Of a DNA stretch of 64,000 bases, positions 3,222 to 48,996 are shown in pieces. The position numbers and the translations under genes were made by a program. Location: NCBI RefSeq assembly GCF_000163295.1, contig NZ_GG700527.1:265453-329452 (forward strand). The letters run 5' to 3'. Below the pieces are notes generated by a model. That model saw only the letters and a list, made by a program, of their open reading frames with translations, was not told the origin of the DNA and did not search any database. Positions within the stretch are counted from its first letter, which is position 1; every line of letters starts with the position of its first letter. Source of the stretch: Anaerococcus vaginalis ATCC 51170. GTDB taxonomy: Bacteria > Bacillota > Clostridia > Tissierellales > Peptoniphilaceae.

Positions 3222-4235
3222 TTATAATAAAATAACTGAATTTTTCTTTAATTCTTCTCTCATTTCATCTGGCCAATAGGATACTTGAACTTCTCCAATA
3301 TGAGCTTTTTGTAAAAAGAACATACAAAGTCTTGATTGACCAATTCCACCTCCTATTGTTTGTGGAAGTTCATTATTTACAAGTAATTTGTGATACTTAT
3401 AATTTAATCTTTCTTCGCAATCAGAAATTTTTAATTGTTCTTTTAATGTTTTTGCATCAACTCTTATTCCCATTGATGATAGTTCCAATTGGTCATCTAA
3501 AACTGGATTGTAAACTAAAATATCTCCATTTAAATTCCAATCGTCATAATCTGGAGCTCTTAAATCGTGAACTTCTTCATTTGATAAAACTTTTCCAATT
3601 TGCATTAAAAATATTGCCTTATATTTTTTGCAAGCAGCTTTTTCTCTTTCCTTACTGTCTTTACATTCTGGAAATTCATCTATTAATTCTTGGCTTGTCA
3701 TAAATTTTATATTATTTGGCAACAGTTTAACTCTTTTTGGAATTAGATGACAAAGATATTCATCTAGGGCTCTTAGGGTATTAAAAATTGTAAGAACTGT
3801 TGCTTTTAAATAATCTACATTTCTATCACTAGGCTCAATTACTTTTTCCCAATCCCATTGGTCAACGTAAAATGAGTGAGTATTATCTGGCACTTCACAT
3901 CTTCTAATTGCGTTCATGTCTGTGTAAAGTCCTTCATACATTGCAAAATTATATTCTTTTAGAGCGTATCTTTTCCATTTTGCAAGTGAATGAACAATTT
4001 CCATTTTTTCATTATTTGCTTTAGGAAGTGTAAATTTAACAGGCTCTTCAACACCGGATAGGTCATCATTTAAACCAGTAGAATTTTCTACAAATAAAGG
4101 TGCTGAAACTCTTTTTAAATTCAAATTATTTGATAAATTTATTTGGAAAAAATCTTTTATTTCTTTTATTAACATTTGTGTCTTATATAAATTTTTATCG
4201 CTTTGATAATTTTCTGGTATTTTTATTTCTTGCAT
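3222..4235 (-). CDS. asnA: aspartate--ammonia ligase (asparagine synthetase A)
   Basis: The protein has 337 residues, close to the family norm of about 330. AsnA makes asparagine from aspartate, ATP and free ammonia, not glutamine. The N-terminus (VSAPLFVENSTGLNDDLSG), the KRYAL segment, the MNAIRR and DQWDWEKV segments and the C-terminal GGGIGQSRLCMFFL loop are class II synthetase-like motifs characteristic of this family. GGAGAG lies before the ATG on the minus strand. It is transcribed divergently from pstS1. No T-box leader is visible in the 166-base upstream region. It matters for the ammonia theme: it is one of four nitrogen-transfer steps here that do not appear to use glutamine. Confidence 0.96.
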   Translation of the reverse strand: MQEIKIPENYQSDKNLYKTQMLIKEIKDFFQINLSNNLNLKRVSAPLFVENSTGLNDDLSGVEEPVKFTLPKANNEKMEIVHSLAKWKRYALKEYNFAMYEGLYTDMNAIRRCEVPDNTHSFYVDQWDWEKVIEPSDRNVDYLKATVLTIFNTLRALDEYLCHLIPKRVKLLPNNIKFMTSQELIDEFPECKDSKEREKAACKKYKAIFLMQIGKVLSNEEVHDLRAPDYDDWNLNGDILVYNPVLDDQLELSSMGIRVDAKTLKEQLKISDCEERLNYKYHKLLVNNELPQTIGGGIGQSRLCMFFLQKAHIGEVQVSYWPDEMREELKKNSVILL

Positions 4236-4312
4236 ATTCTCTCCTAATTCTTTTTCTATTTTTACTATTAGATTATATAGTTTTTTATATTAATTACAAG
4301 ATTTTAAAATAA

Positions 4313-4329
4313 TTAACATAAATTTTACA
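4313..4329 (+). promoter_or_regulatory. candidate PhoP box upstream of pstS1
   Basis: TTAACA (4313-4318) and TTTACA (4324-4329) are separated by 5 bases, an 11-base period. This matches the B. subtilis-type PhoP box (repeated TTAACA-like hexamers one helical turn apart). A -10-like TATTAT lies at 4361-4366 and the gene starts at 4402. Only two good hexamers are present, so this site is weaker than the one before pstS2. Confidence 0.6.
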
Positions 4330-4401
4330 TTTGCCTAATCATTTCAAAACAAAAAGGATTTATTATTCATAATGAAGTTACAAATATTAAAGGAGAAAAT
4401 A

Positions 4402-5355
4402 ATGAAAATTAAAAATTCAAAAATTATAGTTGCGGCACTTTCCTTATCAATGATTTTATCAGCTTGTGGAAATAAGGATAATTCTAATGATGGATCAAAC
4501 GGATCAAATCCAACTGAAAATGCAAGTACTGCAAGTGAGAAAAAAGAAGGCGAAAATACTAAAGCTAACGAAGAAGATTTTGATATAAGTGTTGTATCAA
4601 GAGAAGATGGTTCGGGAACAAGGGGAGCTTTTATTGAACTTGTTGGTCTTGAAGAAGAAAAAGATGGAGAGAAAAAAGATTTAACAACTGATGAGGCTGT
4701 AGTTCAAAATTCAACAAATGGAGTTATGCAAACTGTATCTCAAGATCCATCTGCAATTGGCTATGTTTCTTTGGGAAGTGTAAATGATAATGTAAAAAAA
4801 GTAAAAGTCGATGGAGCAGAAGCTACAGAAAAAAATATTGAATCTGGAGCTTATACTTTACAAAGACCATTTAATCTTGCTTTCAAAGAAGATAAACTTG
4901 ACGATTTGGCAAAAGACTTCTTAGCATTTGTTTTGAGCAAAGACGCTCAAGAAATAGTTGAAAAAGAAGGATATATAAAAGTTGAAGCAAAAGATTACAA
5001 GGGCAAAAAAATCAAAGGAGATTTAACAATTGCAGGTTCAACATCTGTTACTCCGCTAATGGAAAAACTTGTAGAAAAATATAAAGATGTAAACCCAGAT
5101 GCAAATATAGAAATCCAATCAACAGGATCATCTTCAGGAATCGAATCAACAATTTCTGACGTAAGTCAAATTGCTATGGCATCAAGAGAATTAAAAGATG
5201 ATGAAAAAGATAAACTTCAAGTAGAAGTTTTGGCAAAAGATGGAATTGCAGTAATTGTTAACAAAGAAGATTCTAAAATAAATGATTTAACAAAAGATGA
5301 GTTAAAAGAAATTTTTTCTGGAAAACTTAAAAATACCTCTAATATAAATAAATAA
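4402..5355 (+). CDS. pstS: phosphate-binding lipoprotein PstS, apparently circularly permuted
   Basis: I place the start at 4402, where AGGAGA precedes the ATG, rather than at an earlier in-frame ATG without a ribosome-binding site; this gives 317 residues. There is a lipoprotein signal with lipobox LSAC, then a Ser/Asn/Glu-rich linker. The PstS motifs are present but in reversed order: SREDGSGTRGAF (about residue 66) and AIGYVSLG come first, and TIAGSTSVTPL (about 209), STGSSSGIES and MASREL come after. The protein ends at EIFSGKLKN, exactly where a normal PstS would continue into its second half. All phosphate-ligand loops are present. A hairpin separates it from a second pstS. PhoP-box-like repeats lie upstream. 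Confidence 0.88.
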   Translation: MKIKNSKIIVAALSLSMILSACGNKDNSNDGSNGSNPTENASTASEKKEGENTKANEEDFDISVVSREDGSGTRGAFIELVGLEEEKDGEKKDLTTDEAVVQNSTNGVMQTVSQDPSAIGYVSLGSVNDNVKKVKVDGAEATEKNIESGAYTLQRPFNLAFKEDKLDDLAKDFLAFVLSKDAQEIVEKEGYIKVEAKDYKGKKIKGDLTIAGSTSVTPLMEKLVEKYKDVNPDANIEIQSTGSSSGIESTISDVSQIAMASRELKDDEKDKLQVEVLAKDGIAVIVNKEDSKINDLTKDELKEIFSGKLKNTSNINK

Positions 5356-5362
5356 AAATTTT

Positions 5363-5403
5363 AAATAGGCTCTTAGGTAAAATTCCTATGAGCTTATTTT
5401 TTT
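5363..5403 (+). terminator. terminator between the two pstS genes
   Basis: Stem AAATAGGCTCTTAGG (5363-5377) pairs imperfectly with CCTATGAGCTTATTT, followed by a T-run to 5403. It uncouples pstS1 from the pstS2-pstCAB operon. Confidence 0.7.
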
Positions 5404-5419
5404 GAATTTTTTTATAAAC

Positions 5420-5447
5420 TTTACATAGATTTTACATAAGATTTATC
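5420..5447 (+). promoter_or_regulatory. PhoP box (three hexamers) before the pst operon
   Basis: TTTACA (5420-5425), TTTACA (5431-5436) and TTTATC (5442-5447) lie exactly 11 bases apart, the spacing of Firmicute PhoP boxes. A TATTAT -10 element is at 5471-5476, 23 bases downstream of the last hexamer, and no good -35 is present, as expected for an activator-dependent promoter. The PhoP/PhoR pair encoded at the end of the same operon is the obvious regulator. Confidence 0.75.
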
Positions 5448-5501
5448 AAATCAATACAAGGATTTAATATTATTATGTAAAGAAAATGAGAAGGAGATTG
5501 T

Positions 5502-6362
5502 ATGGCAAAAAAAATATTATGGCTTATTTCTACTTTGCTTTTAATTACATCTTGCACTGGTAAAAAAACCAATGTAAATAAGAGCAAAAATTTTGACCTT
5601 ACTGTTACAAGTAGGGAAGATGGATCGGGAACGAGAAAAAGTTTTATCGAACAAGTTGGTTTGATAAAGGAAGATAAAAATGGAAATTATAAAGATTTGA
5701 CAACAGATAATTCTATGGTTATAAATTCAACAAATGGAGTTTTGAAAGCCGTTGGAGTTGATAAAACTGCAATAGCTTATGTATCTTTAACAGCTTTGGA
5801 TGATTCAGTTAAAGCTATTAAAATTGATGGAGTAAGTCCAAATAAAAATACAATTGAAAGTGGCGAATATAAGTTGCAAAGACCATTTGGACTTGCTTAC
5901 AAAAAAGATTCAGCCAAAGACTTATCCAAAGATTTTTTGGAATATGTTAAAAGCAAAAGTGCAAAAAAATTAATTGAAGAAGACGGACTACTTGCTCTTT
6001 CAAATGAAAAGGAATATAAGGCAAAAAATCTTGAGGGAAAATTAACCATAACAGGTTCTTCCTCTCTAAGTTCAATTGTAGAAAAACTTGCTGAAAACTA
6101 TGAAAAATTAAATAAAAATGTTGAAGTTGAAGTTTTATCTAATGAATCTTTGACAGGTTTAAAAAATGTAAAGGACAATGTTGTAGATATAGCCATGATT
6201 TCAAATAAATTACAAGATGATAGTCTTTCATCAGAAATTTTTGCAATTGATGGAATAGCAATAATTGTAAATAAAGATAATACTCAAATTAATGATTTGA
6301 CAATGGAACAATTGAGAGATATTTATAGGGGAGAGATAAAAAATACAGGAGAGTTAAAATAA
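5502..6362 (+). CDS. second permuted PstS-like lipoprotein with altered ligand loop
   Basis: The protein has 286 residues with a lipobox ITSC after a short hydrophobic signal; AAGGAG precedes the ATG. It is a diverged paralogue of the preceding PstS and shows the same swapped order: TSREDGSGTRKSF and AIAYVSL first, ITGSSSLSSIV and DIAMISNKL after, ending at DIYRGEIKN. The loop that reads STGSSSG in PstS1 reads LSNESLTG here, so a key phosphate-contacting loop is not conserved. It may bind phosphate differently, bind another oxyanion, or act as an accessory or sensing protein. It is the first gene of the pst operon and its stop codon abuts the pstC start. Confidence 0.8.
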   Translation: MAKKILWLISTLLLITSCTGKKTNVNKSKNFDLTVTSREDGSGTRKSFIEQVGLIKEDKNGNYKDLTTDNSMVINSTNGVLKAVGVDKTAIAYVSLTALDDSVKAIKIDGVSPNKNTIESGEYKLQRPFGLAYKKDSAKDLSKDFLEYVKSKSAKKLIEEDGLLALSNEKEYKAKNLEGKLTITGSSSLSSIVEKLAENYEKLNKNVEVEVLSNESLTGLKNVKDNVVDIAMISNKLQDDSLSSEIFAIDGIAIIVNKDNTQINDLTMEQLRDIYRGEIKNTGELK

Positions 6363-7223
6363 ATGAAATCATTTAAGGAAAAATTTGGAGAAATTGTATT
6401 TTTAATTTCTGCAATTATGTCCATTTTATTAATAATTCTTATTACTTTTTTTATTTTTAGATCAGGGATAGATTTTATTAATAAATATGGACTTATAAAA
6501 TTTATTACAGGAAATAAATGGGCGCCAACCGCAAAACCAGCATTTTTTGGAATAGGGCCAATGATTGTCGGTTCAATTATTGTAACAGTTTTATCAGCAA
6601 TAATTGCAATTCCATTTGGACTTGCTGTATCAATTTTTATGGCTTATTATTCAAAAAAATCTTACAATTTTTTGAACGGACTTATTAATTTGATGGCAGC
6701 AATTCCTTCAATTATTTATGGATTTTTTGCTATGATGGTTTTGGTTCCATTTATTTCAAAAACTTTTAAAACTGGTGGAATGAATATGCTAACCGCATCA
6801 ATTTTATTAGCAATTATGATACTTCCAACCATGGTAAATATTTCAAAAAATTCCTTAGAGCAAGTTCCAGAAGTTTTTTATACAGGCTCTCTTGCTCTGG
6901 GCGCTACAAAGGAAGAAACAATTAGAAAAGTTATGGTGCCTTATGCAAAAAGCGGAATTTATTCTTCAATAATTCTAGCTATTGGCAGGTCAATTGGAGA
7001 AACAATGGCAGTGTATTTGGTAATTGGAAACCAACCAAGAATGCCTGGTAGTCTTTTTGATGGAGTGAGAACTCTTACAACAAATATAGTTTTGGAAATG
7101 GGCTATGCATCTGGTCTTCACAGAGAGTCCCTCATTGCCACAGGCATGGTTTTATTTGTATTTATTCTTTTGATAAATATAATATTTAATTTTATAAGAA
7201 ATAAAGATCAATCAAGAATGTAG
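6363..7223 (+). CDS. pstC: phosphate ABC transporter permease PstC
   Basis: The protein has 286 residues with about six membrane segments. It forms the membrane channel of the Pst importer with PstA. The coupling (EAA) loop reads [20 protein letters not shown] (about residues 176-195), followed by the typical GRSIGETMAVYLVIGN. The ATG directly follows the stop of pstS2, so the genes are translationally coupled. Length and motifs are normal for the family. Confidence 0.95.
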   Translation: MKSFKEKFGEIVFLISAIMSILLIILITFFIFRSGIDFINKYGLIKFITGNKWAPTAKPAFFGIGPMIVGSIIVTVLSAIIAIPFGLAVSIFMAYYSKKSYNFLNGLINLMAAIPSIIYGFFAMMVLVPFISKTFKTGGMNMLTASILLAIMILPTMVNISKNSLEQVPEVFYTGSLALGATKEETIRKVMVPYAKSGIYSSIILAIGRSIGETMAVYLVIGNQPRMPGSLFDGVRTLTTNIVLEMGYASGLHRESLIATGMVLFVFILLINIIFNFIRNKDQSRM

Positions 7224-7232
7224 AGGTAGAAG

Positions 7233-8033
7233 ATGAAAAAATCTTTTAAAATAATAATTTATGTCTTATCACTTTTGGGATTTGCTGCAGGTGGAATTGT
7301 TATTGCATATATTTTATTAAATGGAATTCCAAATATTTCACCATCACTTTTTGAATTTAAATATTCATCCCAAAATGTTTCTATAATTCCAGCTCTTGTT
7401 ACAACATTTTTATCAATTTTGATAAGTCTACTTGTAACTTTGCCAATAGGAATTTTTACTGCAATTTATTTGTCCCAATATGCAAAAAATAAATTTATAA
7501 TTAAATCTGTAAGATTTGCTACAGAAATTCTTTCATCAATTCCATCAATCGTTTATGGTTTGTTTGGATATTTATTTTTTGTTGATGCTCTTCATTTGGG
7601 ATATTCCTTAATCGCTGGTTGCTTGACAGTTTCAATTATGATTCTTCCAACTATAATTAGAACAACAGAAGAGGCGATTTTAAATGTAAACCCTCTCCAA
7701 GCTCATGCATCACTTGCTCTTGGTGCTACAAAAATTCAAACAATTTTTAAAATAATAATTCCAGAAGCAATAAATGGAATTTTGGGAGGAATATTTTTAT
7801 CAACAGGAAGAATAGTAGGAGAATCAGCTGCCCTAATTTATACAATGGGAACTGTAGCAAAAACACCTTCATCAATTTTTGATTCTGCAAGAACTATGGC
7901 AGTTCACATGTATGTTTTGTCGACTGAAGGTTTTCATGTAAAAGAGGCTTATGCAACAGCAGTATTACTTTTGGTTTTTGTAATACTATTAAATTTTGTA
8001 TCAGCAAAAATTTCTAAGGCTATAGTAAAATAA
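7233..8033 (+). CDS. pstA: phosphate ABC transporter permease PstA
   Basis: The protein has 266 residues with about six membrane segments. It is the second channel subunit of the phosphate importer. Motifs include [16 protein letters not shown] and the coupling loop [20 protein letters not shown], then the [15 protein letters not shown] segment shared with PstA proteins. An AGAGGTAG ribosome-binding site precedes the ATG. It lies nine bases after pstC and ten before pstB. Confidence 0.95.
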
Positions 8034-8043
8034 GGAGAGAATA

Positions 8044-8895: not shown

Positions 8896-8896
8896 T

Positions 8897-11786: not shown

Positions 11787-11806
11787 TTTTATTTTTTAAT
11801 TTTATT

Positions 11807-11830: not shown

Positions 11831-11851
11831 TTAAAATTTTAAGGAGTAGAT

Positions 11852-12142: not shown

Positions 12143-12165
12143 AATATTTAAGGAAAGAATAAATA

Positions 12166-15329: not shown

Positions 15330-17261
15330 ATGCTTTTTAAAACAACAGATGAGCATGAAGCTTTACGTAAAAAAGTCAGAGAATTTGCTGAAGAAAAAGT
15401 AAAACCAATTGCTTTTGAGCTTGATCAAAACAACGAATTTCCTGACGAAATTGTAAAGGAAATGGGAGAATTAGGATTTTTAGGAATTCCTTATCCTAAG
15501 AAATACGGTGGTCAAGGTTTAGACGTAATGAGCTATGCGATCACAGTTGAAGAATTATCAAGAGTTGATGGTGGTGTTGGAGTTATTTGTTCTGCACATA
15601 CATCTTTGGGTTCATGGCCTATTTATGCTTTTGGTACAGAAGAACAAAAGAAAAAATATTTAACACCATTAGCTAAAGGTGAAAAAATTGGTGCATTTGG
15701 TCTTACAGAAGAAAATGCTGGATCTGATGCAGGTGGAACAGAAACAACAGCTGAATTAGATTTGGATGGAAAAAGATATATTTTAAATGGTAAAAAAATC
15801 TTTATTACTAACGCACCAAAAGCAGATACATACGTAGTATTTGCGGTAACAACTCCAGGAATTGGAACTCATGGTATTTCAGCATTCATAGTTGAAAAAG
15901 GAATGGAAGGATTCACATGTTCTGATCACTATGACAAATTAGGTATTAGATCTTCATGTACTGCTGAATTACATTTTGATAATGTAAAAGTTCCTAAAGA
16001 AAATCTTTTAGGAAAAGAAGGTCAAGGATTTAAGATTGCTATGGCAACTCTTGACGGTGGTAGAATTGGTATTGCATCTCAAGCTTTAGGTATTGGACAA
16101 GGTGCTTATGAATCAGCTCTTGCTTATGCTAAAGAAAGAGAACAATTTGGTATGCCAATTGCTCATCTTCAAGCAAATACATTTAAACTTGCTGATATGG
16201 CAACAAATTTAAAAGCTGCAAGACTTATGATTTATTCTGCAGCAGAATTAAAAGAAAATCACGAAAGATATTCAGCAGATGCAGCTATGGCAAAACAATT
16301 TGCATCTGATCTTGCATCAAAAATAACTAATGAAGCTTTACAATTGTACGGTGGATCTGGATTTATTAAAGGTATCGATGTTGAAAGATTCTACAGAGAT
16401 TCTAAGATTACACAAATCTATGAAGGTACAAATGAAATTATGAGAGTTGTTGTTGGAGCAAATACAGTAGGTAGAGCTCCAAAGGTTAAAGCTGTTGGAT
16501 CAAATAAAAAATCTGGCCCTATTGCAGGAGTTAGAAAGGGAGAAATCTATGAAGGAGATCCTAAAGAAGCAGTTAAAAATCTTGTAGCAGCACTTAAAAA
16601 AGACGGATATGACTTTACTGTAGGAATTGATCCTTACACACCAATAGCAGATTCTCAAAGAATTGTTGTAGCAGGTCGTGGTATTGGCGAAAAGAAAAAT
16701 ATGAAATTGATTGAAGATTTAGCTTATCAAGCTGGAGCATCTATTTCATCATCAAGACCAGTTGCAGAAACACTTAAATATGTAGACATCAATAGATATG
16801 TTGGTATGAGTGGTCAAACATTCAAAGGAAACTTATATATAGGTGTAGGTGTATCTGGAGCAGGACAACACTTAAAGGGAATCAAAAATGCATCAACAAT
16901 AGTTGCAATTAACAATTCTAAAAATGCACCAATTTTCAACAACTGTGATTATGGTATAGTTGGAGATGCTATGGTAATTCTTCCACTTCTAATCAAAGAA
17001 TTAGACAATGGAGAAGCTAAGAAACCAGCACCACCAATGAAGAAAATAAAGAGATCTAAACCAAGAAAAATGGCTCCTACAAATCCAATTTATGTAGATT
17101 TAGGTTCTGGATATGAATATAATCCTGAACTTGGAGATCCAGAAAATGGAATTGAACCAGGAACACCATTCGATAAATTACCAGATTCTTGGGTATCACC
17201 AGTATCAGGCGAAGCAAAAGATCAATTCATTAAAATGGATGTACCAGAAGACAGAAAGTAG
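15330..17261 (+). CDS. acyl-CoA dehydrogenase / EtfA FAD domain / degenerate rubredoxin fusion
   Basis: The protein has 643 residues in three parts. Residues 1 to about 385 are a full acyl-CoA dehydrogenase with catalytic Glu365 in [10 protein letters not shown]. About 435-570 is the FAD-binding C-terminal domain of electron-transfer flavoprotein alpha, with [30 protein letters not shown] and [13 protein letters not shown]. After a Pro/Lys linker, 587-640 aligns along its length with rubredoxin ([21 protein letters not shown]...LPDSWV), but the four iron ligands are Asp590, Ser593, Ser623 and Ser626. The EtfA N-terminal domain is absent and no etfB is nearby. GGAGG precedes the ATG. The next gene, 12 bases on, is a flavodiiron protein, so electrons from an acyl-CoA may feed O2 reduction; that link is inference. 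Confidence 0.92.
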
Positions 17262-18605: not shown

Positions 18606-20420
18606 ATGAAAAAAAATTTAAAATTAAGAGCGGAAAATTTTAAAATTAAAATTGGAAATATATCTTATAACAAGAAAAAAATAAAAGAAACGATAAAAAG
18701 AGCAAATGATGATTTGGTAAATGTTTTGCTTTTGCCAGAACTTTGTCTTACTGGAGCAAGTTTGTATGATGGATTTGCGAATGATGATATTTTAGAAGAA
18801 TGCCTTGATGCTTTATTTGATTTGAAAAATTTTTCAAAAAATATTGATACTTTATTTTCTGTTGGACTTCCTGTAAAAGAGGGAAGAAAAATAATTGATA
18901 TGGTATTTTTATTAAAAGAAGGCGATATTATTGGAGGATTTTTTAAAGATGAATTTAAAGACCACGAAAAATATGTTTTCGACACTCCAGAAGAAGATGA
19001 ATTTATTAAGATAAATGATGAATATATTCATCTATATAATAAATCATATATAGAAATTAACGATATAAAAATAGCTGTAAGCGTAGGAGAAAATGAGGAG
19101 AAAAATATTCCCGATTCATTAATTTCTAAGTCAAAAAATAATATAGATATAATTTTAAATCCATCAGCAAAAACTAGATATATAGGATCAAAAAAAGATA
19201 TAGAAGATAAAATTAAATTTTTATCAAAAGATACAATTTATCTCTATTCAAGTACAGGACTTGGAGAAAGTTCAACCGATTTTGTATATGAAGGCTTAAA
19301 TATTATTGGAGAAAATGGAAAAATTAAAGAAAGTAAGAGAGATGAATTTGCTGATTTGTGTTCATATTTTGATATAAGTCAAAATACTACAGAAGAATTT
19401 TTTGAATTTAAAAATAAGCCAAGTCTTTCATATTGGGATAAATTTCCTTATTTGCTTGATGATAAAAAAATCTATGTGGAAGATGCTTTTGATATAGTAA
19501 CAAGAGCTTTAATTCAAAGAATGGAGGCGATTTCTTGTAAAAAAGTAGTCTTGGGACTAAGCGGCGGACTTGATTCAACTATGGCACTTTTATTTATAGT
19601 AAAAGCATTCGAAAAAATGAGTCTTCCAAAAGAAAATATTCTTTTATACACAATGCCAGCATTTGGAACAAGCAAGAGAACCAAATCAAATGCCTTTAAG
19701 CTTGTAGAAGCTTTTGAAATAAAATTAAATGAAATTGTAATAAAAGATGCAGTAAATATTCATCTAAAGGATATTGGCCATGATGGAAAAACTCAAGATA
19801 TAGCCTACGAAAATGCTCAAGCAAGGGAAAGAACTCAAATTTTATTTGATATAGGAAATATGGAAAATGCTCTAGTAATAGGAACTGGAGATAAGTCAGA
19901 AATTTCCCAAGGCTTTGCAACCTACAACGGCGATCACATGTCATCCTATGCAGTTAATGCCTCTTTGACAAAGACCGAATTAAGATATATTGTTTCCTAT
20001 CTTGTAGAAAATACAAAAAATCAAAAATTAAAAGAAGTTTTGGATGATATATTAAAAACTCCAATCTCTCCAGAGCTAAAAAATGAAAATGAAGAAAAAA
20101 TCAGCCAAAAAACTGAAGATATAATAGGCCCTTATGAATTAATAGATTTTTTCACATTTGAATTTTTGGAAAATTCATCAGTAGAAGAAATATATGAAAA
20201 AGCAAAAGTTGCCTTCAAAGACGACTATGACAAAAAAACCATAAAAAAATGGCTCAAATCATTTTATAAAAGATTAATTACAAGCCAATTTAAAAGATCA
20301 GTTTCAGTAGACGGCCCAGCCTTATCACAAAAATCATTCTCCCCAAAAAGAGGATACTTGTTAGCCTCAGACATGTCTGCAGAAGTTTTTCTAGAAAGAA
20401 TAGAAAATTTAGATGAATAA
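18606..20420 (+). CDS. nadE: NAD+ synthetase with degenerate glutaminase domain
   Basis: The protein has 604 residues, the length of the glutamine-dependent class, and converts deamido-NAD to NAD+. The N-terminal nitrilase-like domain (about 1-260) keeps the general-base Glu45 (LLLPELCLTG) and a Lys in GGFFKDEF. At the place of the nucleophile, where the family reads ICEDLW, it reads IAVSVGENEE, so Gly161 replaces Cys. The C-terminal synthetase domain is intact, with LGLSGGLDST (PP-loop), GTGDKSEISQGFAT and SVDGPALSQKSFSPKRGY. The protein is therefore probably ammonia-dependent despite its length. GAGG lies before the ATG. It overlaps the phosphoesterase gene by eight bases. Confidence 0.93.
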   Translation: MKKNLKLRAENFKIKIGNISYNKKKIKETIKRANDDLVNVLLLPELCLTGASLYDGFANDDILEECLDALFDLKNFSKNIDTLFSVGLPVKEGRKIIDMVFLLKEGDIIGGFFKDEFKDHEKYVFDTPEEDEFIKINDEYIHLYNKSYIEINDIKIAVSVGENEEKNIPDSLISKSKNNIDIILNPSAKTRYIGSKKDIEDKIKFLSKDTIYLYSSTGLGESSTDFVYEGLNIIGENGKIKESKRDEFADLCSYFDISQNTTEEFFEFKNKPSLSYWDKFPYLLDDKKIYVEDAFDIVTRALIQRMEAISCKKVVLGLSGGLDSTMALLFIVKAFEKMSLPKENILLYTMPAFGTSKRTKSNAFKLVEAFEIKLNEIVIKDAVNIHLKDIGHDGKTQDIAYENAQARERTQILFDIGNMENALVIGTGDKSEISQGFATYNGDHMSSYAVNASLTKTELRYIVSYLVENTKNQKLKEVLDDILKTPISPELKNENEEKISQKTEDIIGPYELIDFFTFEFLENSSVEEIYEKAKVAFKDDYDKKTIKKWLKSFYKRLITSQFKRSVSVDGPALSQKSFSPKRGYLLASDMSAEVFLERIENLDE

Positions 20421-24080: not shown

Positions 24081-24761
24081 ATGAATACAATCTACGAAGG
24101 TAAGACAAAAAATTTGGTTGAAGAAGATGGAAAATACTTTTGTTTATTTAAGGACACTATGACAGGAACTGATGGAGTATTCGATACTGGTGGAAATCAA
24201 GTTGCTGGCGAAAAAGAAGGCGCTGGTCAAGAGTGTCTTAAAGTTTCAAAATTTTTCTTTGAAAAAATAAATGAGGCTGGTGTAAAAACTCATTATCTTG
24301 GAGCGGACCTTGATAAAAATCTTATGGAAATTGAAAAATGTACAGTTTTTGGAAAAGGTTTAGAAGTTATTACTAGATTTAAAGCTGTTGGATCTTTTAT
24401 GAGAAGATATGGTCTTTATGCAAATGAAGGACAAGATCTTGATGCTTATTCTGAAATTACTTTAAAAGATGATGATCGCGAAGACCCACTTATAACTGAA
24501 GATGGATTGGTTGAATTAAATATTTTATCTCATGATGAATACAAAAAAATAATTGAAGAAAATAAAAAAGTTGCAAGACTTGTAAAAGATATTTTGGCTG
24601 AATATGGACTTGATTTGTATGATATAAAATTTGAATGGGGAAGACTTGCTTCAAGCGGAGAAGTTGTTTTGATTGATGAAGTTTCTGGTGGAAATATGAG
24701 AGCTTACAAAGATGGAACTTATATTGAACCTATGGAATTGTCAAAATATTTGGGACTTTAA
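24081..24761 (+). CDS. purC: phosphoribosylaminoimidazole-succinocarboxamide synthase
   Basis: The protein has 226 residues. PurC (SAICAR synthetase) joins aspartate to CAIR with ATP. Family motifs are MNTIYEGKTKNLVEEDGKYFCLFKDTMTG at the start, the RRYG segment, and LYDIKFEWGRLASSGEVVLIDEVS near the C-terminus. AAGGAG precedes the ATG. It is the first gene after the riboswitch. Length and motifs are ordinary. Confidence 0.96.
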   Translation: MNTIYEGKTKNLVEEDGKYFCLFKDTMTGTDGVFDTGGNQVAGEKEGAGQECLKVSKFFFEKINEAGVKTHYLGADLDKNLMEIEKCTVFGKGLEVITRFKAVGSFMRRYGLYANEGQDLDAYSEITLKDDDREDPLITEDGLVELNILSHDEYKKIIEENKKVARLVKDILAEYGLDLYDIKFEWGRLASSGEVVLIDEVSGGNMRAYKDGTYIEPMELSKYLGL

Positions 24762-24773: not shown

Positions 24774-25256
24774 ATGAAAGTTTCTATAATTATGGGCTCT
24801 TTGTCTGATAGTCCAATTGCTGATAAGGTTGTTTCAAAATTAATGGAATTTGGAATTGATTACGAAGTTAAAGTGATTTCTGCTCACAGAGCTTTAAAAA
24901 GTTTAGAAAAATATGTAAAAGAAAGCGAAGATGAAAGTGAAGTTTATATTGGAATTGCTGGAAAGGCTGCTCATTTATCTGGAGTAATTGCAGCTTTGAC
25001 AACAAGACCTGTAATTGGAATTCCTGCAAAATCATCTCATCTTGGTGGACTTGAAGCTTTACTTTCTACAGTAGAAATGCCAAGTGGCGTTCCTGTTGCA
25101 ACTGTTGCAATCGGTGGGGGAGAAAATGCTGCAATTTTGGCTACAGAAATTCTTGCAATAAAATATGATTCTTTAAGAGAAAAATTAAAGGATATGAGAA
25201 TAAAAATGAAAGAAACTATAGATAATTCTGAATATGAATATAAGGCAAATAAATGA
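24774..25256 (+). CDS. purE: 5-(carboxyamino)imidazole ribonucleotide mutase PurE
   Basis: The protein has 160 residues. Motifs are GSLSDSPIADKV, the catalytic-His segment ISAHRA, IAGKAAHLSGVIAALTTRPVIGIP and LLSTVEMPSGVPVATVAIG, close to class I PurE. No purK is present in this operon, so the carboxyamino donor step is either encoded elsewhere or this enzyme acts on AIR and CO2 directly; HRAL in place of the usual HRTP is a small difference. It overlaps purF by four bases. Confidence 0.93.
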   Translation: MKVSIIMGSLSDSPIADKVVSKLMEFGIDYEVKVISAHRALKSLEKYVKESEDESEVYIGIAGKAAHLSGVIAALTTRPVIGIPAKSSHLGGLEALLSTVEMPSGVPVATVAIGGGENAAILATEILAIKYDSLREKLKDMRIKMKETIDNSEYEYKANK

Positions 25257-26536
25257 GTGGAATTGTAGGAATATTTTCAAAAAAGAAATATAAAAATGTT
25301 TTTCCCGAATTATACTCTGGCCTTTATGCAATCCAACATAGAGGCCAAGAGTCAATGGGAATATCACTTCTTGCTCATGAAAAATTATCAGAAATTAGAG
25401 GTAAGGGAGAAATTGCCAACAATATTAGCCTAGATAATATTTCAACTCTTGCAGGAAATGTTGGTCTTGGTTATGTAAAATATAGATTTGCTGAAGATGA
25501 TAAATCTCTTATGCCTATGCCATGGTTATTTTATCCGAAAAATTCAAATTTCAAAAATTTGATTGCAATTGATGGAAAATTTCTTGATGAAACAAGTCCT
25601 GAAGATGTTGTAAATAAATTAAATTCGAATAATATAGATGAAATTATAGAATTTATAAACAATTTAAAGGGAGCATATTCTATTATTCTCGTAAATGGAA
25701 ATAGGATGATTGCAATTAGAGATCCTTATGGAATTAAAAATCTTTGTGTTGGGAAAAAAGAAGATTCTTATATAGTTGCAAGCGAATCTTGTGTGATTGA
25801 ATCAATTGATGGACAACTTTGTCACGAATTAAAACCAGGAGAAATTTATATAGTTGACGATAATGGAGAAGAATCCTATTTTGCCAAAGAGCTTTCTAAT
25901 TCTCCTTGCATTTTTGATTTCGTTTATACTGCAAGACCAGATTCTTCAATAAATGGTGTTAGCGTCTATGATGCAAGAATTAAAATGGGAGAAATTCTTT
26001 ACAAAGAACATCCTGTTGATGCTGATATTGTAGTTGGAAGTCCTGATAGTGGATTGATTTCAGCTGTTGGATTTTCGCGTGCATCAAATATAAAATACGA
26101 AAGAGCAATAGTAAGAAATAGATATATAAATAGAACATTTATTCTTCCAACAAATTCAATGAGAAAAAAAGGAATAAGAATTAAATTAAATCCAATAAAA
26201 CATCTTATTGAAGGAAAAAGAGTTGTTCTTGTGGATGATTCTATTGTAAGAGGCAATACTATAAAAAGAGTAATAGAAATTTTGAGAGAATCAGGAGCAA
26301 AGGAAGTCCACATTAGGATTGCATCTCCTCAAGTGATAAAAGAAGAAACTTTTACTTTTGATGTGCCAGACAAAGATCATTTAATTAGCAACAACAGAAG
26401 TGTAGAAGAAGTTAGAAAAATTATAGGAGCAGATTCTTTGGGATTTATTTCCCTAGAAGGATTAAGACAAGCTTGTGGAAATAAAACATATTACGAAAAT
26501 TGTTTTAATGGATATAACCCTTTAGAAAGGATATAA
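25253..26536 (+). CDS. purF: amidophosphoribosyltransferase with inactivated glutaminase domain
   Basis: The protein has 427 residues, shorter than the usual 460-500. The C-terminal phosphoribosyltransferase domain is intact: [11 protein letters not shown] loop, [17 protein letters not shown] loop and GSPDSGLIS. The N-terminal Ntn-hydrolase domain is not. The mature nucleophile Cys (normally MCGIVGI) is Ser2 (MSGIVGI); an in-frame TAA (25250-25252) directly before the ATG rules out a longer start or a cleaved propeptide. GHVRY is GYVKY, HNGNLVN is IDGKFLD, and the segment holding the catalytic Asp is shortened. At least two of the four 4Fe-4S cysteines of the B. subtilis type are lost. It likely makes phosphoribosylamine from PRPP and free ammonia. 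Confidence 0.93.
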
Positions 26537-26537
26537 A

Positions 26538-27563
26538 ATGCCAATAAATTATAAAGACGCTGGAGTTGATGTAGCTAACGGTCAAAAAGAAGTCGAACTT
26601 ATAAAAAAATTAGTAGAAAAAACTCAATCAGAAAATGTTTTGAGCAAACTTGGAGGATTTTCTGGTCTATTTAGTTTGGAAAATTTAAATATAAAAAATC
26701 CAGTTTTGGTTTCAGGGACAGATGGAGTTGGAACTAAGGTTATGCTTGCACAAATGATGGACAAGCACGATACAATTGGAATTGATTGCGTGGCAATGTG
26801 CGTAAATGATATTCTTTGCCAAGGAGCAAAGCCATTATTTTTTCTAGATTATATAGCATGTGGCAAACTTGTTCCAGAAAAAATGGAAAAAATTGTAAAA
26901 GGAGTAGCTGACGGCTGTCTTCAAGCTAATTCTTCTTTGATTGGCGGAGAAACTGCAGAAATGCCAGGTCTTTATAAGGAAAATGACTATGACCTTGCAG
27001 GATTTTGTGTTGGCATAGTTGATAAAGAAAAAATAATTACTGGAGAAAAAATTAAAAAAGGCGATCATATTTTTGGTTTAAAATCTTCAGGAATTCATTC
27101 AAATGGATATTCTCTTGTAAGAAAAATTGTTTTAGAAAAAGAAAAATTATCTTTGGATGAAAAAATTGAAGGACTTGATACAAGTCTTGGAGAAGAATTA
27201 TTAAAACCAACCAAAATTTATGTGAAAGAAATTTTAGCCCTTCTTGAAAAAATTGAAATAAATGGCCTAAGTCATATTACTGGTGGTGGATTTTATGAAA
27301 ATATTCCAAGAATGATTCCAGATGGACTTTGTGCAAAAATTGATGTGAGAAATATTCCTATTCCAAAAATATTTTCACTTTTGGAAAAATGGGGAGAGCT
27401 TGATAAAAAAGATATGTACGAGACTTTCAACATGGGAGTAGGTCTTGTTTTTGCAGTTGATAAAAATGATATAGATAAAGTTAAAGAAATAATTGATGAA
27501 AATGAATTATTAGATCTTGGAGAGGTTATAGAAAATGATGAAAAAATCGACCTCAAATTCTAA
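26538..27563 (+). CDS. purM: phosphoribosylformylglycinamidine cyclo-ligase
   Basis: The protein has 341 residues. PurM closes the imidazole ring to give AIR. Motifs are [10 protein letters not shown] at the start, [48 protein letters not shown] and [15 protein letters not shown]. It starts one base after the purF stop and overlaps purN by about 29 bases in another frame. It is a normal family member. Confidence 0.96.
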
Positions 27564-28161
27564 AAAAATTGCAGTTTTGATCTCAGGCTCAGGAACAAAT
27601 CTTCAAGCTATAATTGATTCTTGTCAAAATAAAATTATTAATGGAAAAATATCTGTAGTAATTTCAAATAAAGAAAATGCCTATGGACTTACAAGAGCAA
27701 AAAATGCCTCAATTAAAACATTGGTTTGCAAAGATAATGATATTTTGCTTGATACCTTGATAAAAGAAAAAATCGATCTAGTTGTTCTTGCAGGCTATCT
27801 TAAAATTTTACCTCAAAAAATAATTGACGAATTTGAAGCAAAGATTATTAATATCCACCCATCCCTTATACCATCATTTTGTGGGATGGGATTTTATGGA
27901 AGAAAGGTTCATGAAAAAGTCTATGAAAAAGGAGTAAAATTTACTGGAGCAACAACTCATTTTGTTACAAAAGACGCAGATGATGGCCCAATAATTTATC
28001 AAGAAATTGTAAAAATTGACCAAGAAGATACAATTGATGATATAGCAAAAAATGTTTTGGAAAAAGAACACGAAATTTTGATAAAATCAGTAAAAGATTT
28101 TTGTGATGATTTATTTTACATAAAAAATAATAAGGTTTTTGTAAAAAATAGGAGTTTTTGA
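27535..28161 (+). CDS. purN: phosphoribosylglycinamide formyltransferase
   Basis: The protein has 208 residues. PurN transfers a formyl group from 10-formyl-THF to GAR. The N-terminus [17 protein letters not shown] and the catalytic residues are intact: Asn and His in [11 protein letters not shown] and Asp in [18 protein letters not shown] precedes two adjacent ATG codons (27535 and 27538), either of which could be used, within the end of purM. The 29-base overlap is longer than the others in the operon. Confidence 0.95.
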
Positions 28162-29405
28162 TGAAAGTTTTAATAATTGGAAATGGTGGAAGAGAACACG
28201 CACTTGCTTGGAAAATTTCACAATCAAAAAAAGTAGACCAAATATTTATGGCAAAAGGAAATGCTGGCACTAATTCTTTTTGCAAAAATATAAATATTGA
28301 ACCAACAGATATAAAATCCTTGGTGGATTTTTCTAAAAAAGAAAAAATCGACCTTACAATTGTAGGGCCAGAAGATCCTTTGTGTATGGGAATTGTAGAT
28401 GAATTTGAAAAAAATAATCTTAAAATTTTTGGACCAAACAAAGAATGTGCAAAATTTGAAAAATCAAAAAAATTTACCAAAAATTTCCTAGAAAAATATA
28501 AGATACCAACAGCAAAATATAAATCTTTTGAAAATTTTGACAATGCCAAAAATTCATTAAAGGAATTTTCATATCCCTTAGTAATAAAAGCTGATGGGCT
28601 TTGTCTTGGAAAAGGCGTTATAATTTGCGAAGACGAAAAAAAAGCTATAGAAACTCTTGACGATATTTTTAATAAAAAAATATTTGGAGATGAGGGAAAA
28701 ACTGTTGTAATCGAAGAATTTTTAAAAGGCGAAGAGGCATCACTTTTGTGTTTGGTTTCAAACAATAAATTATTTCCGCTAGAAACTTGCAAAGACCACA
28801 AGCAAATTTATGATGGAAACAAGGGTCCAAATACTGGAGGAGTTGGAACATATTCTCCAAGTAAATTTTCACAAAAAACAGGGGAAAATATAGAAATAAT
28901 TTTAAAGCAAATTGAAAAAGGACTGGATGATTCAAAACTTTCTTACAATGGAATTTTGTTTATTGGATTTATGATTGATAAAGATGTGCCAAAAATATTA
29001 GAATTTAACGTAAGATTTGGAGATCCGGAAACAGAAACCCTAATGCCAAGACTTGAGTCAGACCTTGTAGAAATTATAGAAAAAACTCTTGATAAAAGTC
29101 TAAAAAAAGAAGATATAAAATGGTCAGATGATTATTCCCTATCATTAATTCTTGTTTCAGATGGTTATCCATTAAAATATGAAAAAAATAAAGAAATAAG
29201 TGGACTTGAAGATGTAAAAAATTCAACTATTTTTCACAATGGAACAAAATTAGAAAATGGAAAAATTTTAACAAATGGCGGAAGAGTTCTTACAATAAAC
29301 GCAAAAGCAAAAACTTTAGAACTTGCAAGAAAAATCGCCTATAATGATTGCGAAAAAATAAAATACGAAAATAAATATTATAGAAAAGATATTGGATTAA
29401 ATTAG
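28161..29405 (+). CDS. purD: phosphoribosylamine--glycine ligase
   Basis: The start is the ATG at 28161, one base inside the purN stop (TGATG), with ATAGGAG upstream; a TTG three bases earlier is less likely. The protein has 414 residues. PurD joins glycine to phosphoribosylamine, the unstable product of PurF. Motifs are VLIIGNGGREHALAWK, IVGPEDPL, the ATP-grasp segments VIKADGLCLGKGVI and VVIEEFLKGEEASLL, and FNVRFGDPETE. It ends the operon. purH, commonly found between purN and purD in Firmicutes, is missing here. Confidence 0.96.
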   Translation: MKVLIIGNGGREHALAWKISQSKKVDQIFMAKGNAGTNSFCKNINIEPTDIKSLVDFSKKEKIDLTIVGPEDPLCMGIVDEFEKNNLKIFGPNKECAKFEKSKKFTKNFLEKYKIPTAKYKSFENFDNAKNSLKEFSYPLVIKADGLCLGKGVIICEDEKKAIETLDDIFNKKIFGDEGKTVVIEEFLKGEEASLLCLVSNNKLFPLETCKDHKQIYDGNKGPNTGGVGTYSPSKFSQKTGENIEIILKQIEKGLDDSKLSYNGILFIGFMIDKDVPKILEFNVRFGDPETETLMPRLESDLVEIIEKTLDKSLKKEDIKWSDDYSLSLILVSDGYPLKYEKNKEISGLEDVKNSTIFHNGTKLENGKILTNGGRVLTINAKAKTLELARKIAYNDCEKIKYENKYYRKDIGLN

Positions 29406-46000: not shown

Positions 46001-46483
46001 GAAATAAAATTATCAGCAACTGATAAGGGAACTTTAATCCACAAAATTTTCCAAGAATTAGAAGTGAAATCCTATGATTTAAATTCATTAGAAAAAGAAA
46101 TAAATAAATTAGTCGATTTAGGAAAAATAAAAAAAGAATATCTCCCATATATAAATTTTGAAAATATTTTAGGATTTTTTAATTCAAAAATCATCCAAGA
46201 TTTAATGAAAAAATCACCAAAAATTCGAAAGGAAGAATCATTTCTTAGAAAAATTGATGATTTTTATGTAAATGGTCAGATTGATATAATGTTTGAATCC
46301 CAAAATGAAGTTGTACTTATGGATTTTAAAACAGATTCAATAAAAAGGGAAGGATTTTATGATAAGCAACTTGAAATTTACAAGGACTCCATAGAAGAAG
46401 CTCTTGGAAAAAAAGTTATATCATCTTATATTTATTGGTACAATTTTAAAGAATTTGAACAAGTTAATAAAAACCACCATTAA
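43088..46483 (+). CDS. addA: helicase-nuclease subunit AddA
   Basis: The start at 43088 has AAAAAGGAG upstream; an in-frame ATG eight codons earlier has none. The protein has 1131 residues. It has UvrD-type helicase motifs: SAAAGSGKTRVLVDR (Walker A), VTFTNKA, FFDEYQDSN, GDVKQSIYGFRNA, MTIHKSKGLEF and VLYVALTRAE. The C-terminal RecB-family nuclease has IFQELE, GQIDIMFE and VLMDFKTDS. It ends the repair operon, and its last 20 bases overlap the 3' end of the convergent SDR gene; no terminator is visible. Confidence 0.95.
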   Translation: MSKFKPTDDQKKAIETRGKNIIVSAAAGSGKTRVLVDRLVSIMLEEKIPIKNMIIVTFTNKASVEMKDRIRQKLNELMKEGNSDKIFIKNQIKSINDAFIKTLHSFCADMLRENFYLSDNLSPSFKIAADSKQALLRKDAIDELFEDEYEKNDSNFINFLHNFASSKDDKDAKNIILDLYDFSKSQINPHQWLCDNTNNNFDFEKFKFYIKERIETIILNARDLEDYIKEKSMRDKYFIMIEKDLSYLEKIKNSIEEKTWDEVIEIFENGLANMVTISKKLDDPNENAYVKAKKNAYKDEFNIVKDFVKNTDSITRGFFNPLEDKILNELKNLVFSFEKIYTNKKREENYLDFSDMEHEFIKLLDNEKLQSKLKKQFKYIFFDEYQDSNDIQNYIVEKLKNENNLFFVGDVKQSIYGFRNARPELFLKKLEGYDTDSNCLRINLSKNFRTDKDLIDFNNYIFDRLMTRKNSDIAYKDDNHRLNYHFEFDEKYPKVSIKALAKNVSEEAYLTKEINNLINSGLEYKDIAILLRSSSKAYLFENELKRAGIPFSSDISKISFETVEVEFFINILKYIANPNDDISLLSVLRSEIFNFSEDDLAEISLSSEKSHFYKKFKEYEKENENNLSQKISDFNTIFTDFSYILNFSTMYDFANIIFEKSGFYDFLKARDRGEERVKNIEAFIELMDDYDKNNENSLFGFLAYIDNLKNQKKDNLKASRNLSDDENLVRIMTIHKSKGLEFKAVILPDFSKRFNTRDNSKDMVLDKDLGIGINIADWENKIKISSIKRDLILEKSNLNDKKEEMRVLYVALTRAERKISIIGKKDLNQKGLEKILNANSVLDLSSYMDWILKILCDDKIMSDFIDIDYKTDAFNKGFLEIKYIEDFIEDYKKDYTDVEKLIGADEYNQKIYKDIEEVFNFSYKNKENINKSLKKSVTEIAKNYDLSKDGYEKSPFEENEAFYEFRKPNFEEIKLSATDKGTLIHKIFQELEVKSYDLNSLEKEINKLVDLGKIKKEYLPYINFENILGFFNSKIIQDLMKKSPKIRKEESFLRKIDDFYVNGQIDIMFESQNEVVLMDFKTDSIKREGFYDKQLEIYKDSIEEALGKKVISSYIYWYNFKEFEQVNKNHH

Positions 46484-47192
46484 TATCAAAAATGGATCCT
46501 GTAATATAAGAGCCTTTGTCAGATATTAAAAATTCAACGAGATTTGCAATTTCTTCGGATTTTGCAAATCTTTTTTCTATTAAATCTTCTTTCAAAGATT
46601 TTTTATCATCTTTAGACAAATCAAATTTTGTCATATCGGTATCTACAATTCCTGGTGCAATCGCATTTACCCTAATATTTGATGGCAAAAGTTCTTTTGA
46701 AAGAGCCTTTGTAAAAGAATTTACTCCGCCCTTACTTGCAGAATAAGCAACTTCAAAACTTGCTCCCAAACTTCCCCAAATTGATGAAATATTTATAATA
46801 ACTCCAGATTTTTGACTAACCATATTTGGAATTGCTCTTTTTGAAGTTAGAAAAATTGAGGATAAATTTGTCCTTAAAATTTCATTCCAATCGGACAAAG
46901 TCATATCTTGAATTAAACCAAAATAAGAAATGCCTGCATTATTTATTAAAATATCAACATGAGAAAAATTTTTCTCAGAAAGATCAAATAAACTATTTAT
47001 TTCATCTTCATTTTTAACATCACATTTTACAGCAATTACATTTGGATTTTCTTTTCTCAAATCTTCTAATAAATTTAAAGCTTTTTCCTTATTTTCCTTA
47101 TAAGTTAAGATTAAATTGTAGGATTTATTTAATTTTTTTGCAATGGCAGCACCAATTCCCCTTGATGCGCCCGTTATTAATACAGTTTTCAT
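46464..47192 (-). CDS. short-chain dehydrogenase/reductase (FabG-like)
   Basis: The protein has 242 residues. It has the classical SDR motifs TGASRGIGAAIA (cofactor), ILINNAGISYFG, an active-site Ser in INISSIWG, YSASKGG (catalytic Tyr/Lys) and NAIAPGIVDTDM. It resembles 3-oxoacyl-ACP reductase, but as a lone gene outside a fatty-acid cluster it could reduce another substrate. An extended -10 element ends six bases before the ATG and no ribosome-binding site is present, so the mRNA is probably leaderless. The 3' end overlaps addA by 20 bases. Confidence 0.88.
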   Translation of the reverse strand: MKTVLITGASRGIGAAIAKKLNKSYNLILTYKENKEKALNLLEDLRKENPNVIAVKCDVKNEDEINSLFDLSEKNFSHVDILINNAGISYFGLIQDMTLSDWNEILRTNLSSIFLTSKRAIPNMVSQKSGVIINISSIWGSLGASFEVAYSASKGGVNSFTKALSKELLPSNIRVNAIAPGIVDTDMTKFDLSKDDKKSLKEDLIEKRFAKSEEIANLVEFLISDKGSYITGSIFDINGGFY

Positions 47193-47198
47193 ATCATG

Positions 47199-47207
47199 AT
47201 TATATCA
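47199..47207 (-). promoter_or_regulatory. extended -10 element of the SDR gene
   Basis: On the minus strand TGATATAAT (47207 down to 47199) is followed by six bases and then the ATG at 47192. The predicted transcription start coincides with the start codon. Confidence 0.6.
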
Positions 47208-47243
47208 TATATTTAAGGGTAAAACTTAAAACAGGAGGATGAT

Positions 47244-48083
47244 ATGAAATATTACAAACTAAATGACGGAAATGAAATACCAGCTTTGGGTTTTGGAACT
47301 TATAAAATTACTGACAGAAATGACATGGCAAATGCAATCGAGGCATTTTTTGAAAATTCTTATGAATATTTAGATACAGCAAAAATTTATAATAATGAAA
47401 AAATGATAGGAGAAGAACTTAAAAATTCTTGCAAAAAAAGAAATGAATACAAAATAGCAACCAAGGTCTGGCCAAGTGATTTTGGCTGTGATAAAACCAA
47501 AAAATCTCTTGACGAATCTTTGGAAAAATTACAAACAGATTATTTGGATGTGGTTTTACTTCATTGGTTTGGAAATGATTTTGAAAAATCTTGGAAAGTT
47601 TTTGAAGATTATAAAAGACAGGGAATTGTAAAAACAATAGGAGTTTCAAATTTTGAAATTTCTCAATTAAAAAAACTTTTAGAAATTGGAGAAAAACCAG
47701 CAATTGACCAATTAGAATCAAGTCCACATTTTCAAAATGACGAAACGGTTAGATTTTTAAAAGAAAATAATATTATTCATCAAGCCTGGTCACCAATTGC
47801 AAGAGGAAGAAGTGAATTATTAGAAGAATTTGTAATAAAAAAACTTGCAAATAAATACAACAAAACTCCAGCCCAAATAGTTTTGCGTTGGCACATTGAA
47901 AGAGGCTCAATGCCAATTCCAAAATCAACAAATCCAAAAAGAATAAAAGAAAATATAGAAATATTTGATTTTTCACTTGACGAAAAAGATTTGAAAGCAA
48001 TAAAATCAATTGACCTTAAAAAAAGATACTCATCAGATCCTGAAGATGAAAATTGGTTAAAAGAATTATTAAAAAGAATATAA
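47244..48083 (+). CDS. aldo/keto reductase
   Basis: The protein has 279 residues. It is an AKR of the 2,5-diketogluconate reductase type. DGNEIPALGFGTYKI starts the barrel; the catalytic tetrad is Asp and Tyr in YLDTAKIYNNE, Lys in ATKVWP and His in VLLHWFG. The cofactor-binding end has PIPKSTNPKRIKENIEIFDF. CAGGAGG precedes the ATG. It is divergent from the SDR gene across only 51 bases. The substrate is unknown. Confidence 0.92.
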   Translation: MKYYKLNDGNEIPALGFGTYKITDRNDMANAIEAFFENSYEYLDTAKIYNNEKMIGEELKNSCKKRNEYKIATKVWPSDFGCDKTKKSLDESLEKLQTDYLDVVLLHWFGNDFEKSWKVFEDYKRQGIVKTIGVSNFEISQLKKLLEIGEKPAIDQLESSPHFQNDETVRFLKENNIIHQAWSPIARGRSELLEEFVIKKLANKYNKTPAQIVLRWHIERGSMPIPKSTNPKRIKENIEIFDFSLDEKDLKAIKSIDLKKRYSSDPEDENWLKELLKRI

Positions 48084-48085
48084 AG

Positions 48086-48118
48086 AAAAAATTCTGCAGT
48101 TTAATGCAGAATTTTTTT
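48086..48118 (+). terminator. terminator of the aldo/keto reductase gene
   Basis: AAAAATTCTGCA pairs with TGCAGAATTTTT through a six-base loop; the T-run continues to 48118. Confidence 0.9.
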
Positions 48119-48144
48119 ATGGGGCATATTGTTTGATTTTTATT

Positions 48145-48996
48145 TTATCTATTTTCAAAAATTTCTTTTATTTCGTCTTCATTTATTCCAACCATAGCTT
48201 CGCCGAGATCTTTTGAAACTTCTAAAATAATTTCTGGTTTATCATAATTTTCTACGGCTTTTACAATTGCATTTGCTCTTTTTTCTGGATTTCCAGATTT
48301 AAAAATTCCACTTCCTACAAAAACTCCATAAGCTCCAAGTTGCATCATCAAAGCTGCATCTGCAGGAGTTGCAACTCCGCCTGCAGAAAGATTTGCTACA
48401 GGAAGTTTTTTATTATCTCTTACATATTTTAAAAGATTTACATCAACAGCTAATTCTTTTGCGTATGAAAAAATTTCATCATCAGTTAAAACAGAAATTC
48501 TTTGGATTTCTCTGTTAATTTCTCTCATGTGTCTTACAGCTTGAACAATATTTCCTGTTCCAGCTTCGCCTTTTGTTCTAATCATTGAAGCTCCTTCAGA
48601 AATTCTTCTCAAAGCTTCAGAAATATTTCTTGCTCCACAAACAAAAGGAGTTTTAAATTTCTTTTTGTCGATGTGATTGTAATCGTCAGCCACAGTCAAA
48701 ACTTCAGATTCATCTATGTAATCAACTCCCAAGGCTTCAAGAATTTGTGCCTCAACAAAATGTCCAATCCTTACCTTTGCCATTACAGGAATTTTTACAG
48801 CATTCATTATCTCTTCAATCATTTTTGGATCGCTCATTCTTGAAACGCCACCAGCAGCCCTTATATCTGCAGGAACTCTTTCAAGAGCCATAACAGCACT
48901 TGCGCCAGCTGCCTCTGCAATTTTTGCTTGTTCAACGTTCATTACATCCATAATAACTTTTTTTTCAAATTGAGCATTTATATTTTTTTCAATCAT
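48145..48996 (-). CDS. pdxS: pyridoxal 5'-phosphate synthase subunit PdxS
   Basis: The start at 48996 follows AAGGAG on the minus strand, giving 283 residues; a longer in-frame version would run through the intergenic region. PdxS builds PLP from ribose 5-phosphate, glyceraldehyde 3-phosphate and ammonia. [23 protein letters not shown], the catalytic Lys in [39 protein letters not shown] and [25 protein letters not shown] are all intact. PdxT, the glutaminase that normally supplies ammonia and is usually the next gene, is absent: downstream lies a convergent aldo/keto reductase. Confidence 0.95.

Follow-up and report, generated by a model that had tools for sequence, protein, structure and literature searches.

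Probable ammonia dependence of PurF and NadE in Anaerococcus vaginalis, with repeated loss of glutaminase sites across its order

We analysed a stretch of 64,000 nucleotides from Anaerococcus vaginalis ATCC 51170 (contig NZ_GG700527.1; the whole stretch is called the window), which encodes PurF, of purine biosynthesis, and a two-domain nicotinamide adenine dinucleotide (NAD) synthetase, NadE. The contig measures 1.88 Mb and the genome, which is 98% complete, 1.89 Mb. In both enzymes the catalytic Cys of the glutaminase domain is replaced, and we consider it likely that they are ammonia-dependent, that the dead domain of each is kept as a scaffold, and that such loss is selective and has been repeated within the order. 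The loss of the nucleophiles, its recurrence in relatives, the state of the other glutamine-using enzymes and the purifying selection on the dead domains can be read from the sequences. The features that carry this proposal are given below (PRPP, phosphoribosyl pyrophosphate).

18606..20420, plus strand: NadE, two-domain NAD synthetase, 604 amino acids (Pfam NAD_synthase PF02540, E 3.4e-34)
18606..19400, plus strand: nitrilase-like domain of NadE, residues 1-265 (approximate limits)
19086..19088, plus strand: Gly161 codon (GGA) of NadE, at the catalytic Cys position
25253..26536, plus strand: PurF with Ser for Cys and an intact PRPP domain
25256..25258, plus strand: Ser2 codon (AGT) of PurF, at the position of the N-terminal nucleophile Cys
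48145..48996, minus strand, from its own ATG: PdxS, pyridoxal phosphate synthase subunit (Pfam SOR_SNZ, E 1.8e-98)

Replaced nucleophiles in PurF and NadE

A profile search found a single PurF match in the genome. Both domains of the overall fold, the N-terminal nucleophile (Ntn) domain and the PRPP transferase domain, are present, and residues 325-334 hold what we take to be the PRPP-binding motif. With the numbering and roles of Cys, Arg73, Asn101 and Asp127 taken from studies of the E. coli, B. subtilis and M. tuberculosis enzymes, Ser2 occupies the nucleophile position, Lys stands at Arg73 and Asp127 is lost in the alignment. An Asp-Gly pair (AIDGKF) lies close to where the Asn101 motif belongs, at a point where the aligner put a gap and left no aligned Asn, and a deletion near the glutamine site is found in the clade to which the window PurF belongs. 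These readings bear out the original prediction, which had described a Ser for Cys at residue 2 and the absence of the other glutaminase residues. The glutaminase site of this PurF is probably dead, which would rule out the use of glutamine. When the Cys of E. coli PurF is replaced by Ser or Ala, the enzyme has no detectable glutamine activity and still uses ammonia (PMC3261824).

The Cys is absent from 27 of the 27 scorable PurF proteins among 30 genomes of the genus, the unscored ones being those of G004 (N-terminus off the stretch), G009 (a weak PRPP-domain match only) and G023 (no PurF). These 27 are of three kinds, namely 16 with Ser that group with the family, 6 resembling that of the window and 5 divergent ones with Val.

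NadE is likewise the single match of its kind in the genome. Its closest PDB relatives are 6ofc, 3sdb and 3dla, with 162 bits to 6ofc for the synthetase domain; the first ~265 residues match no Pfam family at E 0.001 or better and align weakly (40 bits) to NadE of M. tuberculosis. In the nitrilase domain, whose triad in NadE we assume to be Glu-Lys-Cys, the Glu and Lys columns are retained, a short alignment gap occurs just past the Lys position, and the nucleophile is Gly161. Gly at this position, noticed earlier for the window alone, was found in 30/30 genomes of the genus. Outside the genus, six of eight two-domain NadE proteins have the Cys and two do not, and 18 of 24 order-level genomes outside the family have only a match of single-domain NadE size. 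Since these two Cys are missing from all congeners that could be scored, the loss in PurF and NadE is beyond chance.

PdxS, the search for which was confined to the window, was described in the original prediction as having no PdxT beside it, and the absence of PdxT extends to the whole genome and genus, as the PdxT family (PF01174) gave no match in the own genome and none in 30 genus genomes. Pyridoxal phosphate is made by PdxS from ammonium without PdxT (PMC5407770).

The loss is selective in the window genome

Other glutamine-using enzymes of this genome retain their catalytic residues, viz., GICYG and a His-Glu pair in GuaA, MCGI and HNG in GlmS, GICNGF and HGEG in PurL, and, in a protein presumed to be GatA, the Lys and the two Ser motifs (identified by visual inspection, in this genome only). 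A GatB-like gene, which we take to be GatB, adjoins the latter. The loss of glutaminase sites in this genome is selective, as judged from catalytic residues, because GuaA, PurL, GlmS and GatA keep theirs, and a conversion of all nitrogen-transfer steps was rejected on the same grounds. Thus, of the coordinated conversion originally envisaged, dead PurF and NadE, an undetected PdxT and similar losses in relatives (PurF, NadE, PurL, GuaA) stand, and its extension to nitrogen transfer as a whole does not. The two findings named beforehand as speaking against it divide, in that intact sites occur in other amidotransferases (GuaA, PurL, GlmS and GatA) and no PdxT was found elsewhere.

The remaining locus of the original prediction was that of asparagine synthesis:

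3222..4235, minus strand: AsnA, ammonia-using asparagine synthetase (Pfam PF03590 (AsnA), E 2.4e-99)

The gene is genuine, but it was rejected as a sign of decay, as AsnA was found in 29/30 genus genomes and in 56 of the 61 sampled genomes, those with intact glutaminases and the own genome included. A search of the own genome with PF13522 matched only GlmS, and AsnB is therefore absent.

Within the genus, the Cys is kept in 13/13 aligned GuaA and 17/17 PurL proteins read (PurL of G023 is broken), a GlmS match is missing in 9/30 genomes (among them G009, which is 82% complete), and a GlnA-type match in 12/30. Cytidine triphosphate (CTP) synthase (PF06418) was not found in any of the 30 genomes, the own included, and CTP in the genus must come from salvage or another route. 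The same enzyme is present in 6/7 other family genomes of the sample. A separate observation concerns PurL, which in the congener G011 (L492:10423-15333) is fused to PurD in a protein of 1637 residues; that of the window genome is unfused (1262 residues), and PurL frames of fusion-like length occur in many other congeners.

Repeated loss across the order

The comparison set comprised the own genome and 60 relatives (61 genomes), and the wider search of the order covered 150 genomes, from which 92 stretches were fetched. The resulting 148 PurF proteins are a non-random sample (of the listed places left unfetched, most belonged to family f19), in which the nucleophile is Cys in 67, Ser in 72, Val in 5 and Gly in 4, so that 81/148 are without Cys. 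Losses recur in relatives, as a comparison suggested in the original prediction was to establish. The PurF tree, which left out G035, G090, G101, G143 and rows that were too short, requires at least 8 changes at the nucleophile. Three of the four PurF rows with Gly (G035, G101, G143) have an aberrant N-domain, and PurL of G035 is intact. Two genomes, G125 and G155, have two PurF genes each, one with Ser and one with Cys, which could be due to transfer or contamination.

All 65 Ser-type PurF proteins that are aligned at the Asn101 column have Asp there (7 of the 72 have gaps). Asp together with Cys is seen in 12 rows, including G154, G160 and G172, and because these three are close kin of the Ser-type G031, the pattern suggests that in PurF the change of Asn101 to Asp preceded the loss of Cys.

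Among 102 PurL rows, 44 are without Cys (Gly in 42, Ser in 2), and 43 of these 44 come from genomes whose PurF lacks the Cys or the Asn-Gly motif (Fisher test by genome, p 4e-11, shared ancestry ignored). GuaA, aligned in 41 of the 61 genomes, shows Gly for Cys in 3 cases and truncation in 2 (G037, G048), and in 5 of the 61 (G044, G056, G060, G051, G032) its frame of 317-331 residues is too short for a glutaminase domain; in all, the Cys, or most or all of the glutaminase domain, is lost in 10/61. Small extra PF00117 proteins are present in G051, where a separate glutaminase for the short GuaA is possible. By genus, GuaA and PurF states gave counts of 5/3/3/16 and a Fisher p of 0.027 with shared ancestry ignored; the counts were entered by hand, excluded G035, whose PurF is aberrant and GuaA intact, as well as G032, which has no PurF, and took GuaA of G038 as intact by its domain score. 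The catalytic Cys was kept wherever the other two enzymes were read, i.e., in 18/18 fetched GlmS and 26/26 PyrG (CTP synthase).

Outside the order sample, PurF has the Cys in 78 of the best 80 matches listed from a bacteria-wide scan, and the two exceptions are metagenome-assembled genomes named Tissierellia bacterium and Tepidimicrobium sp., both with Gly in PurL. The Cys motif is present in 9 of the 12 control PurL proteins read, the third that lacks it (L304) being an aberrant match.

History of the window PurF

Judged by the PRPP domain alone, the window PurF falls among the Ser-type PurF proteins of families f4 and f6 (support 99/98), apart from 19 other PurF proteins of its own family f1 (support 100/100), and a single f1 PurF clade is rejected by the approximately unbiased (AU) test (p 0.028). 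A PurF that was already dead was likely transferred into the window clade, a case that concerns one gene on a long branch. Transfer of the whole purine cluster was considered and rejected, as the window genes are not set apart from those of other f1 members in trees of PurM and PurE. In family f18, G067 and G078 have a Ser-type PurF, which is adjacent to PurF of f4 in the tree, together with a PurL with Gly; two other genomes of that genus, G053 and G087, carry normal PurF and PurL. The gene order in the window is purC-E-F-M-N-D; purL lies between purC and purE in G067, G039, G114 and G057, and upstream of purE in G106. PurL of the window genome is encoded away from this cluster and shares 67% identity with PurL of G011 and 41-44% with dead PurL.

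Proposed mode of action and alternative explanations

We propose that PurF and NadE of the window work as ammonia-dependent enzymes through their synthetase halves (PRPP transferase and NAD synthetase), and that their glutaminase halves, which would be unable to hydrolyse glutamine, are retained as structural scaffolds. Retention of the domain in NadE may be explained by the octamer core, which in human NadE is built by the glutaminase domains, and enzymes of this class accept free ammonia as a substrate (PMC6946656). PdxS would take up ammonia directly. Ammonia released by amino-acid fermentation may permit the loss. Across the order, PurF and NadE, and in relatives PurL and GuaA, appear to have lost their glutaminase sites repeatedly, and GlmS and CTP synthase to have kept theirs.

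Several observations weigh against this proposal. Four other glutamine enzymes of the genome look intact (GuaA, PurL, GlmS, GatA), and glutamine is therefore still used; a weak glutamine-synthetase-like match of 694 amino acids was also found. The PurL of G068 has Ser for Cys with HGEG kept and an intact PurF site, the sole PurL loss without a change in PurF. Reduced to 4 independent pairs, the association of PurL loss with PurF loss has a median sign-test p of 0.5; the two independent-pairs tests, with 4 and 5 pairs on the starred branches, could not reach 0.05. PyrG is considered able to use ammonia in vitro, and its unbroken retention of the Cys despite this is left unexplained. GlmS is considered unable to use free ammonia, which would account for the retention of its site.

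A further difficulty is that most of the 72 Ser-type PurF proteins keep Arg73 (61) and Asp127 (61), so that amino-acid binding may persist in some of them. This leads to the suggestion that dead sites were repurposed, the pocket of Ser-type PurF binding an amino acid in a sensory or regulatory role, or Ser and Asp together hydrolysing another amide. The invariant Asp at the Asn101 column and the restriction of the nucleophile column to Cys, Ser, Val and Gly in 148 PurF proteins would suit such a role. So would the ratios of non-synonymous to synonymous substitution rates (dN/dS) in seven f4 Ser-type PurF proteins, 0.054 for the glutaminase and 0.059 for the PRPP domain, as compared with 0.017-0.117 for the glutaminase domain in three Cys-type control sets, though these ratios are rough, with dS above 1 in several of the sets. 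We regard repurposing as unlikely, as Asp at the oxyanion position is expected to hinder hydrolysis, and the Lys for Arg73, the lost Asp127 and the nearby deletion make a pocket improbable at least in the window clade.

The original prediction attributed the changes to relaxed selection, under which the glutaminase sites would be drifting ruins retained by their fusion to the synthetase. In the window clade, dN/dS is indeed roughly doubled in the dead domains relative to the synthetase halves, in PurF (glutaminase domain 0.134 vs PRPP domain 0.072) and in NadE (nitrilase-like domain 0.200 vs synthetase domain 0.084), the lower values showing that the synthetase halves are strongly selected. 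However, a similar difference appears in two of three Cys-type controls (glutaminase/PRPP 0.071/0.028, 0.117/0.058 and 0.017/0.034), which cover PurF and not NadE, all ratios are far below 1, and Gly is preserved through all four of its codons in PurL (41 read) and in NadE (26 of the 30 genus genomes read, four being missed by the pattern). The dead domains look to be under purifying selection and the replaced sites conserved rather than drifting, which renders pure relaxation doubtful, and in our view rather improbable as the whole explanation. Even less probable is a separate glutaminase, encoded elsewhere, that feeds PurF or NadE. Split systems of this type exist (PdxS with PdxT, PurL with PurQ), but the own genome has only two PF00117 matches (GuaA and one left unread, so that this point is not closed) and a single one to PF13522.

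A broader version of the ammonia proposal can be put forward only tentatively, and we consider it less likely than not: that in the order free ammonia displaced glutamine as nitrogen donor of purine and NAD synthesis, as an adaptive trait that was acquired in steps and could in part be transferred. Asn101 of PurF would have become Asp before Cys became Ser, PurL, GuaA and NadE would have acquired Gly, and dead PurF genes (once with a dead PurL) would have moved between families, replacing other copies. The rebuilt sites might then act as inlets for ammonia or sense amino acids.

Relation to known systems and significance

Dead glutaminase domains are already known, and we did not find the multi-enzyme pattern in print in a search of full-text literature whose scope left out most subscription journals. 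Human carbamoyl phosphate synthetase 1 (CPS1) also retains a glutaminase-like domain with Ser for Cys and uses ammonia only (PMC4655335), and the crenarchaeal PurF' also lacks the N-terminal Cys, with ammonia use suggested there (PMC3261824). Unlike CPS1, a single animal enzyme, the present case involves several enzymes that are unrelated and differ in fold, within a single bacterial order, and whereas the crenarchaeal PurF' accompanies a normal PurF, that of the window is the genome's only one. The single-domain NH3-dependent NAD synthetase also makes NAD from ammonia, but the window NadE differs from it by the retained dead nitrilase-like domain, and no two-domain form with a dead nitrilase domain was found in a search of PMC3376133 for selected terms. 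For PdxS without PdxT, eight cases have been recorded (PMC9997740); here, PdxT is missing from 30/30 genomes of a genus.

Glutamine is the textbook nitrogen donor for purines, and the use of ammonia is mostly regarded as a laboratory property. The natural series from an intact PurF site, through one with Asn101 changed and Cys kept, to the Ser type and the further reduced form of the window may represent stages of losing glutamine use. With such a series one could ask under what conditions free ammonia is enough in vivo, why only some amidotransferases convert and what role a retained dead domain plays. For such enzymes, the homology-based name 'glutamine amidotransferase' is probably wrong.

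Other genes of the window

The genes around purF bear names that we presume from their translations, and each has homologues in the purine clusters of relatives:

24081..24761, plus strand: purC (translation; homologues)
24774..25256, plus strand: purE (translation; homologues; tree)
26538..27563, plus strand: purM (translation; homologues; tree)
27535..28161, plus strand: purN (translation; homologues)
28158..29405, plus strand: purD (translation; homologues)

Elsewhere in the window (15330-17261), an acyl-coenzyme A (CoA) dehydrogenase is fused to the flavin adenine dinucleotide (FAD) domain of electron transfer flavoprotein (ETF) alpha and to a rubredoxin domain.

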